From Polyangiaceae bacterium (GTDB lineage Bacteria; Myxococcota_A; Polyangia; Polyangiales; Polyangiaceae), in assembly GCA_019637295.1 (NCBI GenBank), contig JAHBVX010000003.1, forward strand, positions 558,001-622,000: 64,000 nt of DNA. The letters run 5' to 3'. Shown in pieces: positions 17,475-20,136 of the stretch (the first letter of the stretch is position 1; each line of letters begins with the position of its first letter). The position numbers and the translations under genes were made by a program. Under the pieces are notes generated by a model. The model ran no database searches. It had not been told where the DNA came from and saw only the letters and a list, made by a program, of their open reading frames with translations.

Positions 17475-17873
17475 CGTCGCGTCGCAGAGCCCCTGGCGCA
17501 CGGTGACGGGGGTCGACATCCAGCGCCGGAGAGTATCGCACTCGCCCGAGCTGAGAAAGCGCTCCCGTCCCCGCGACCCGCGCAACCGCAACACGCCCAC
17601 GCCTGACCCGTGATCACATCTCCCGGAGGGCCCAGCCTTCCGCCATGGCTCCGAAATTTCTCGAATCGGCGCATGAGCGTTCCCATCCCGGTGGACCGCT
17701 CGATTCTCGGTGGCCGCCGAGCTGAGCAAGCTGCACCACGCTTGCTGGTGCTGCCCGCACTCTGCGCGGCTGGAACGACGTTGGGCGCCTCGTTGCTCGC
17801 GTTGCCTTGCGCTCGGCGCGGACTGTCACGAGGAGCTGGCCGTCCGGCGTCGTCGCGTTCTCACTCGCTCGCT

Positions 17874-18022
17874 ACCCAACGCGGGTCGTGCGTTTGCCAC
17901 GCCGCGCGTTCTCGCGCTCGCGACCCAACGTGGGTCGTGCGTTCACGCCGCGCGTTTTCGCGCTCGCGACCCAAGGTGGGGCGTCGTCGTCGCGCTCGCG
18001 CTCGCGACCCAAGGTGGGTCGT
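17874..18022. repeat. cluster of palindromic repeats GACCCA-AGG-TGGGTC (four copies)
   Basis: Within a gene-free 780-bp stretch (17475-18254) are four copies of a short inverted repeat: 17874-17888 (ACCCAACGCGGGTCG), 17922-17938, 17968-17984 (one mismatch) and 18006-18022. They lie in a loose tandem array with periods of about 48, 46 and 38 bp and shared flanking CGCGCGTT(C/T)TCGCGCTCGCGACCCA. Short ORFs read through them but only as repeat-derived peptides. The rest of the gap holds nothing recognisable. Confidence 0.8.
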
Positions 18023-18254
18023 CGGTCGTTGCGCTCTCGCGAAGAATGTCTCGCGCTCATGTCGATTTCGCTGGACAGCATTTTCGACGCGCCGCGTGCA
18101 CGCTCCGCAGGCGGATGTGGATGAGCGCGCTCCGGGCCCTGCGCGGCGCGCTGGCGCGCTTTCGCGCGCGCGGCGAGTTTCGAGGCGATCACCCGCGCCC
18201 TCGCCGCGCAGCGCGCCGCTGAGAGGGCCAAAATTTCGCGTGCTATGCGAGGGC

Positions 18255-19734
18255 ATGCACGAGAGTCAGCACCAACGCCAACACCAGGGCCACTACCACC
18301 GCGACTACGAGCCGGCGCTGCCGACGCGCGAGCTCATCGAGCGCGTGCGCGCGCTGCTCACGGATCAAGCTGCGGCCGAGCGGCGTCTCCCTGCCGCTAC
18401 CTGGCGGATCTGGCCGAAAGCGGGTCCGGGGGCCGCAGCGATCCAGAACCGCGCCTACGCGGACGAGCTGGGATGCCGCGAGGTGCTGCTTTGGTTTGGG
18501 GTCCGGCAGACGCGGGAACTGGCTCCGGGCGTCAAGCCGCGCTGCGCACGCTGCCCGCGATCGAGCGCGCGTTCGTCGAGGGTGACCTGTCGTAACGGGC
18601 GCGAGACGCGCGGCCACCAATTGAGACGGAGCTTGCGTGGCTCGAGCGCAGCGCCCGAGATAGCGCCCTCGAACGCCGGGCGGCGGGAGTAGAGGGAGGC
18701 CGCGCGCATGGCGGCTGGAGCGAGTGCCGCGTCGGCCGCAGCGAGCGTGGGCGCAACCTGCGGCGAGTGTGAGCGCATCGCCCGCGACGAGCGTCGGCGG
18801 GACGCTCGCACTGGGCGCGGGAGCGCGTGGCGACGGCACGCTCGCGCCGAGTGGCGAACGCCGTCCAGCGTGCGGGTCACGGTCGGTTCTCGGCGGAGGC
18901 GTGGGCGCTGCTCGAGCGGGCGATGGTGGGCGCGCGGGACGCCAGCGGCGGGGGCATGAGCGACGGCGAAGCGCTGGAAGCGCTGGCGCGCGACGCGCTC
19001 GGTGGAGCAGTCCCGGCTCGGATCAGGCCGCGGCGCTCGGTCGTGGGTTCACGGTGAGTGCGCGGTGCCAGAGCAGCGAGCTTCGATACCCGCGCCGGCG
19101 TGTACTTCCGCGCCGGGCGCGTTGCCGCGCGCTCGGTTGCGGCGCACGAGCACGAGCTGAGTCACCGAGCGCGCGGTGGAGGCGACCAGCGCGCTCCGGG
19201 AAACGGAGCCACGCGGCGCTCCCATGCCGGCCGGCGTGCGGCGCGCGGTTTCGCGAGATCAGCGACCTGCCGCGCGTGCCCGGCTGCCATCGCCGGCGCT
19301 ACGTGGACGTGCACCACCTGCGCGCGCAGTCGAGGGGTGGCGAGCACTCGCGGCGCAACTGCGTGTGTCTCTGCACCACGCACCACCTGCTGCTGCATGA
19401 GGGCAAGCTCCGCATCGAGGGCAACGCCGACGTCGCCGCCTCCCTGCGCTTCTTCGACGTCCACGGCGAGCTCACCGCGGCTCCGCTCGGGTGCCCGGTG
19501 ACCCAAGGTGGGTCGTCGCCAGGCGCCGTGACCCAAGGTGGGTCGTGGGGAGCGGAGGCCGGAGCGCGATTGCTTCGGGTGATGGCGCGGCGCGGCGGGT
19601 GGACGATGGACGGCCTCGTGGACGCGAGCGGGCTGCCGGTGCATGCCGTGAGCGCGACGCTGGTCGCGCTTCAGCTCGAGGCGCGGGTGCGGGTGCGCCG
19701 GGGGTGCTTCGAGGCGGTAGCTCGCCACAGGTAG
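18255..19734 (+). pseudogene. decayed HNH endonuclease gene
   Basis: Remnant of a gene for a Polyangiaceae-type HNH endonuclease of roughly 400-450 residues. Pieces appear in order but in changing frames. The ATG frame at 18255 gives RELIERVRALLTDQAAAERR; a second frame gives RYLADLAESG; back to the first for NRAYADELGCREVLLWFG; then the second again for RTLPAIERAFVEGDLS followed by an in-frame TAA near 18593; WLERSARDSALERRAAG and AEAWALLERAMVGARDASGG continue in that frame to a stop at 19055. The HNH part is in a third frame at about 19263-19400 (PGCHRRRYVDVHHL, CTTHHLLLHEGK) and runs to TAG 19734. At least four frameshifts and one stop. Confidence 0.8.
19500..19546. repeat. palindromic repeats inside the HNH remnant (two copies)
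   Basis: Two exact copies of GACCCAAGGTGGGTCGT at 19500-19516 and 19530-19546, 30 bp apart, sit in the linker between the HNH motif and the C-terminal helical part. They match copies at 17874-18022 and 19862-19878. In this frame they would encode TQGGS. Confidence 0.8.
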
Positions 19735-19755
19735 CTGAACTGCCGTCTCGGACGG

Positions 19756-19881
19756 CTGCACGAAGCCAAGCTCCGCATCGAGGGCAACGCCGACGCCGCC
19801 GCCTCCCTGCGCTTCTTCGACGTCCACGGCGAGTGCACGCGGCTCCGCCCGGGTGTGCGGCGACCCAAGGTGGGTCGTCGC
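19756..19881 (+). pseudogene. duplicated fragment of the HNH endonuclease gene
   Basis: About 125 bp nearly identical to 19393-19518 of the HNH remnant, including KLRIEGNADAAASLRFFDVH and, at the end, another copy of the palindrome GACCCAAGGTGGGTCGT (19862-19878). It lies 363 bp from the first copy and has no other part of the gene, so it is a local duplication or the remains of a second neighbouring HNH gene. Confidence 0.75.
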
Positions 19882-19883
19882 AA

Positions 19884-19902
19884 CCCGCCCCCGCCCCCGC
19901 CC
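19884..19902 (-). other. predicted G-quadruplex motif downstream of trpA
   Basis: The minus strand reads GGG-C-GGGGG-C-GGGGG-C-GGG, four G-tracts with one-base loops, the strongest class of quadruplex motif. It lies 235 bp beyond the trpA stop in the direction of trpBA transcription. A second, three-tract stretch follows at 19909-19921. Confidence 0.6.
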
Positions 19903-19923
19903 ACGCAACCCGCCCCCGCCCAT

Positions 19924-20037
19924 GCGACACGCAAACGCCCACGCGACACGCAAACGCCCACGCGACACGCAAACGCCCACGCGACACGCAAACGCCCACG
20001 CGACACGCAAACGCCCACGCGACACGCAAACGCCCAC
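19924..20037. repeat. 19-bp tandem repeat, six exact copies
   Basis: The unit GCGACACGCAAACGCCCAC is repeated six times without change. It lies in a 250-bp tract (19880-20130) in which the plus strand has almost no T (C/A/G only). As 19 is not a multiple of 3, every frame gives a 19-residue peptide period, so the long ORFs here are artefacts. The tract fills the space between the HNH fragment and trpA. Confidence 0.95.
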
Positions 20038-20136
20038 GCCCACGCAACCCGCCCACGCCCACGCCCACGCAAGCGCAAGCGCAAACGCAACCCGCCCACG
20101 CCCACGCAATCGCAACCCGCCCCCGCCCAGCGCGCG

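Follow-up and report, generated by a model that had tools for sequence, protein, structure and literature searches.

Why should one short palindrome recur several times in and around a single decayed gene? The window (the whole 64-kb stretch analyzed, C19:558001-622000 of the own genome G000, which spans 7.65 Mb in 25 contigs) carries copies of GACCCAAGGTGGGTC upstream of an HNH endonuclease gene, within it, and in a fragment attached to its end. The relevant features are listed by their positions in the window.

17849..18022, forward strand: 5' palindrome array of four direct repeats of about 41 nt, each with a (partly decayed) palindrome
17873..17887, no strand assigned: degenerate palindrome TACCCAACGCGGGTC with 3 mismatches (start earlier given as 17874)
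17922..17936, no strand assigned: palindrome GACCCAACGTGGGTC, arms intact, centre ACG instead of AGG
17968..17982, no strand assigned: palindrome GACCCAAGGTGGGGC, right arm broken
18006..18020, no strand assigned: palindrome GACCCAAGGTGGGTC, an exact match in both the window and the genome pattern search
18255..19734, forward strand: decayed HNH gene copy with frameshifts and stops, its start set by analogy with L024:3869 (MHESQHQ...)
19270..19395, forward strand: HNH motif (CHRRRYVDVHH...NCVCLCTTHH), in which a frameshift removed the first zinc-type Cys
19500..19514, no strand assigned: linker palindrome 1, exact GACCCAAGGTGGGTC, coding VTQGGS
19530..19544, no strand assigned: linker palindrome 2, exact GACCCAAGGTGGGTC, coding VTQGGS
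19552..19734, forward strand: C-terminal winged-helix region (Pfam DprA_WH in both the window ORF and its homologues; model of a homologue)
19755..19889, forward strand: duplicated HNH-to-linker fragment, joined to the 3' end of the gene, with the same join at L025
19862..19876, no strand assigned: palindrome GACCCAAGGTGGGTC inside the duplicated fragment

A sequence-only reading of this DNA had counted seven exact palindromes. The window scan retained four as exact (18006, 19500, 19530 and 19862), while the remaining three have another centre (17922), a broken arm (17968) or a degenerate sequence (17873). The four-copy upstream array described in that reading was recovered at 17849-18022, as was the copy in a duplicated fragment, since 19862 falls within 19755-19889, a duplicate of 19392-19527 (93%/87%). 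The same reading held that the density of palindromes exceeds chance, and the counts agree. Allowing up to 3 mismatches, the 64-kb window contains 13 matches, whereas 100 dinucleotide shuffles averaged 2.0 and never exceeded 6, hence the window palindromes are not a product of chance. Genome-wide, a pattern search of the contigs found 19 sites of GACCCA-N3-TGGGTC and 3 of the reversed control pattern. A chance origin is ruled out by the shuffles, the genome control and the ranking of palindromic 10-mers at HNH loci reported below. A known RNA family was rejected as well, as Rfam gave no match up to E=1. At 19879-20130 lies a minisatellite with a period of 19 (CACGCAAACGCCCACGCGA), and tracts likewise rich in CCCACGC border further copies of the element.

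The gene was also correctly recognized as decayed. Its protein match is interrupted by two TGA and one TAG codons, and it shows frameshifts and stops against an intact copy 137 kb away, a full-length gene at L024:3869-5449 encoding 527 aa (P0001). The window copy, which includes the ORF at 18724-19734, is 88% DNA-identical to this gene over 17951-19750. Comparison of element DNA places the beginning of the repeated unit at the array (17850-17938, then 17951 onward). In the linker of L024, the palindrome has multiplied to up to four copies. Further fragments of the element, many of them internally deleted, are dispersed across the genome, and all 19 genomic sites lie within or adjoining copies or fragments of the element, one of them (C7:36252) being the upstream array alone. 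By sequence comparison, the window gene is a decayed member of a dispersed HNH gene family. The odd join at 19734-19755, where the 3' end of the gene is followed by a second HNH-to-linker segment, is shared with L025:3236-3241. A separate repeated ORF at L024:454-1075 resembles a four-helix-bundle protein; its counterparts at L019 and L020, 83-84% identical (by eye), are fused to fragments of the HNH element.

According to sequence, Pfam and a structural model, the encoded protein of the focal lineage is helical in its N-terminal region, carries an HNH motif and ends in a winged helix. The motif reads C..GC..VDVHH..N..C..HH; of the five homologues scanned, three (L111, L090, L089) scored above the Pfam HNH cut-off, and P0001 and the window copy fell below it. 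Pfam and NCBIfam recovered HNH and winged helix or RuvA_C from the homologues, and no Y1 transposase domain. The winged helix predicted at the C-terminus is close to that of IclR-type repressors. Winged helices of the IclR family bind palindromic operators. The palindrome-bearing linker has a pLDDT below 50 in the focal lineage and is unstructured in the model of a homologue. Carriage by phages or plasmids was considered and rejected, given that the protein had no matches in phages, plasmids or viral contigs; a 17-mer DNA pattern matched viral contigs at eight scattered single positions, which we read as chance.

The palindrome and the gene family largely travel together among relatives. We surveyed 183 genomes of the order, counting the palindrome with a spacer of 2 or 3, and at least seven sites were found in G040 (64), G000 (19), G024 (10), G167 (10) and G135 (7). 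Homologues at E<1e-30 are confined to G000, G024, G040 and G135, which are four of the five richest genomes, and the other 179 hold at most 3 sites, the array of G167 excepted. All ten sites of G024 lie within or adjoining HNH gene copies. In G135, five of the seven sites are inside gene copies and the remaining two look like background; one full-length gene there has no palindrome. A link to HNH genes was rejected for G167, where nine of the ten sites form a local 18-bp tandem array whose centre differs, and the tenth stands alone with yet another centre. The nine GACCCAACCTGGGTC sites (C1:752841-753067), partly an 18-bp tandem array, are unrelated to HNH genes. The homologues of G040 have lost the HNH domain and have kept the N-terminus, the winged helix and a palindrome-packed linker. 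Linker palindromes in these HNH-less homologues (L100, L101, L179) code TQSGS or THRGS repeats, with up to four palindrome copies in L101. The 61 spacer-3 sites of G040 are mostly outside the gene family, in arrays or as singles, often just 3' of genes.

Within genes, the DNA word is kept more strictly than the protein. In the coding frame of gene copies from four genera, the palindrome reads ACC CAA NGT GGG TC. The third encoded residue is Gly, Cys, Arg or Ser, with a codon nearly always ending in T, and the Gln within the palindrome is always CAA, although these genes use CAA for 16% of their Gln. Among G000, G024 and G135, conserved residues share the same codon in only 36-57% of cases. The central base of the palindrome and the base after it are free, and conservation ends at the borders of the 15-mer (positions 2-6 and 10-14 were imposed by the search, the remaining positions were not).

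The pattern extends to the phylum Myxococcota, in a sample that includes draft and MAG genomes. A search of 235 genomes for the 14-mer GACCCACGTGGGTC found 24 sites in 12 genomes, and 14 of these lie within or next to HNH genes of the superfamily. Two genomes have one site per gene, namely G198 with five HNH genes and five sites and G285 with four of each. Here the site is read in the frame D-P-R-G-S before the central domain, so that both frame and place differ from the focal lineage. We also scanned 107 HNH loci from 31 genomes, collected by protein search, for all palindromic 10-mers. The commonest was CCCACGTGGG, present at 59 loci in 19 genomes, followed by a 10-mer at 15 loci in 10 genomes. 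Control DNA from the same genomes (twenty 20-kb stretches, 400 kb) contained ten cores, all in one array of G147, and none in the other 380 kb; the apparent background rate of 10 cores per 400 kb was therefore rejected. Clustering with HNH genes of the family, which the sequence-only reading had proposed to look for here and in relatives, is thus seen in the own genome, among the richest genomes of the order and in the phylum-wide ranking. Several HNH families lack the CCCACGTGGG core (G212, G224, G232, G283, G008, G119), as do the two actinobacterial homologues found. The latter (L162, L164) both carry GGTCCACGTGGACC in VVVHVD codons, which may reflect codon bias or another intragenic palindrome.

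The arms beyond the core vary in a coordinated manner. Flanking pairs at ±1 are complementary in 47% of cases versus 30% when shuffled, and pairs at ±2 in 64% versus 42% (both P<=0.0005); the pair at ±3 is marginal and no covariation is seen further out. Examples of covarying arms are GCC...GGC, GCT...AGC, TGA...TCA and TGG...CCA. Arm sequences shift by lineage. Because the word is kept despite changes of residue, frame and position, the sequences indicate that the constraint acts on the DNA, and that the palindrome has a DNA-level role tied to the HNH gene family. Selection on a protein motif (xHVG or TQxGS), with the palindrome a mere by-product of GC-rich codons, is improbable as an alternative. 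Preferred codons alone favour the palindromic NCC CAC GTG GGN, and 46 of the 75 sites within ORFs code xHVG, which does count against our preferred explanation. However, the phases x-H-V-G, D-P-R-G and P-T-W are used 46, 18 and 11 times, so that 29 sites use a frame other than x-H-V-G, and another 13 lie outside ORFs. Genes of G179 and G178 have two sites each, about 110-125 bp apart, the second in a frame that varies among copies. Codon bias would also not explain the fixation of the rare codons CAA and NGT in the focal lineage.

Among the three roles that the sequence-only reading had left open, a site recognized by the nuclease fits best. The simplest and most likely reading is that the palindrome is a recognition site for the encoded protein, with binding and cleavage both putative. 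Recognition is suggested by the resemblance of the winged helix to IclR-type palindrome binders and by the shift of arm sequences among lineages. A use in copying the gene is suggested by the multicopy dispersed genes, the arrays and the fragments. The HNH protein, probably as a dimer, would recognize the palindrome, and nicking or cutting there might allow gene copies and bare sites to spread through repair or gene conversion. We give an even chance to the full proposal, in which a dispersed Myxococcota HNH family would carry the palindrome in cis as a DNA site that the encoded protein recognizes and that aids the spread of gene copies. More tentatively, HNH genes might target themselves across the phylum, with arms and specificity co-evolving by lineage and cleavage-driven recombination spreading copies and leaving REP-like arrays.

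Possible traces of copying include tandem arrays of the palindrome without a detected HNH gene in G040 and G147. The window has a minor instance of such an array upstream of its gene. The HNH genes of G147 carry CCCACGTGGG as its array does. This array (L360:6523-8052) consists of about 14 tandem units of ~111 bp, and every unit holds CCCACGTGGG or a variant differing by one base. Breakpoint tests lean weakly toward copying at the sites. Fragment breakpoints in G000 fall near linker palindromes in 7 of 32 cases versus 2.8 expected (p~0.02, biased by alignment ends and shared ancestry), and in G179, G349 and G344 the end of homology coincides with a palindrome in 7 cases versus 1.6 (P=0.01), a count biased because a conserved word attracts the end of an alignment. 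Neither empty sites nor recent insertions came to light, which counts against the proposal. Several points count against recognition by a nuclease. A nuclease cutting its own gene needs protection or regulation, the genome with the most sites (G040) has homologues without HNH, and some HNH families as well as the one G135 gene have no core.

Autoregulation is the main rival. The palindrome would then be an operator, an autoregulatory or silencing site upstream of and inside the gene for the HNH-winged-helix protein or a host repressor, and would have no role in mobility. This is unlikely in our assessment, even though the modelled C-terminal domain resembles binders of palindromic operators, sites precede the ORF in G000, G336, G344 and G022, and the homologues of G040 retain sites after losing HNH. 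Gene copies examined in G024 and G135 have no exact upstream site beside them, the arrays of G040 and G147 are distant from any such gene, and site positions vary widely.

A selfish in-frame palindromic insert comparable to the Rickettsia palindromic elements, which an unrelated enzyme would spread and the gene family would put up with in an unstructured linker, is less likely again and rather doubtful. Known elements of this kind are in-frame insertions in unstructured segments (PMC2996958). Compatible with such an insert are the low-confidence linker predicted around the palindrome in the focal lineage and the multiplication of the palindrome within the linkers of L024 and G040 L101. Yet in G000, G024, G198 and G285 the sites belong to one gene family rather than to many genes, the sites of G198 hold a fixed position ahead of the central domain, and distant lineages share the word, its arms covarying. 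Our preferred reading remains recognition by the encoded protein.

Known systems share parts of this arrangement. The multicopy DUF222/HNH genes of Actinobacteria (13E12 repeat) combine a helical N-terminal region with a C-terminal HNH domain. The HNH element is likewise multicopy with a helical N-terminus and HNH, a likeness of general architecture that serves as a lead only. Unlike those genes, its homologues are not called as DUF222 by Pfam (five homologues gave no hit up to E=1), and the two actinobacterial homologues have no core palindrome. HNH homing endonuclease genes also consist of dispersed nuclease gene copies with, possibly in our case too, a cognate site. A homing gene normally sits within its own target site and thereby destroys it, whereas most gene copies here contain intact palindromes, if the palindrome is indeed the target.

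Protein-coding palindromic elements of Rickettsia and Wolbachia, and PARCEL, are palindromic DNA read in frame in unstructured protein segments (PMC2996958). The in-frame palindrome in a linker of low pLDDT is similar in the focal lineage, and other lineages carry the site elsewhere. The differences are that our palindrome is only 14-16 bp, occupies one nuclease family in several genomes and is read in three frames across lineages. Rather than being spread over many unrelated genes, it sits in element copies (19/19 sites in G000, 10/10 in G024, 5/5 in G198 and 4/4 in G285).

The nearest likeness is to REP/REPIN palindromes and their RAYT genes, where short palindromes, dispersed and arrayed, go with a single nuclease-type gene family in each genome (PMC3116915). 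Our palindromes are also short, dispersed and in arrays, and linked to one such family. In REP/RAYT the enzyme is a Y1 tyrosine transposase and here an HNH protein, the sites here lie inside coding sequence, and the gene itself is multicopy. A constant GTAG/CGTC tag is absent, with CGTC flanks in G000 and CATG/CATC in G024 and G135. The REP trait of many extragenic palindromes is seen in the sites of G040 outside the family and in the G147 array, while G000 has only 19 sites, all tied to the element. The REP-like role first suggested for this locus therefore fits the arrays and fails on enzyme type and tag, so we do not file the HNH palindrome under REP/RAYT. To our knowledge, a single enzyme class, RAYT, accounts for REP elements. 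A search of the non-subscription literature found no paper that connects HNH genes with REP-like palindromes. If our reading is true, this would be a second, independent pairing of palindrome and nuclease, with the site built into the enzyme gene across many lineages. It would also offer a testable guess at the role of a multicopy nuclease family without an assigned role here, and natural enzyme-site pairs with covarying arms as a ready set for reading specificity. By analogy, the HNH palindrome system appears to work most like REP/RAYT (PMC3116915), with the site inside its own gene.
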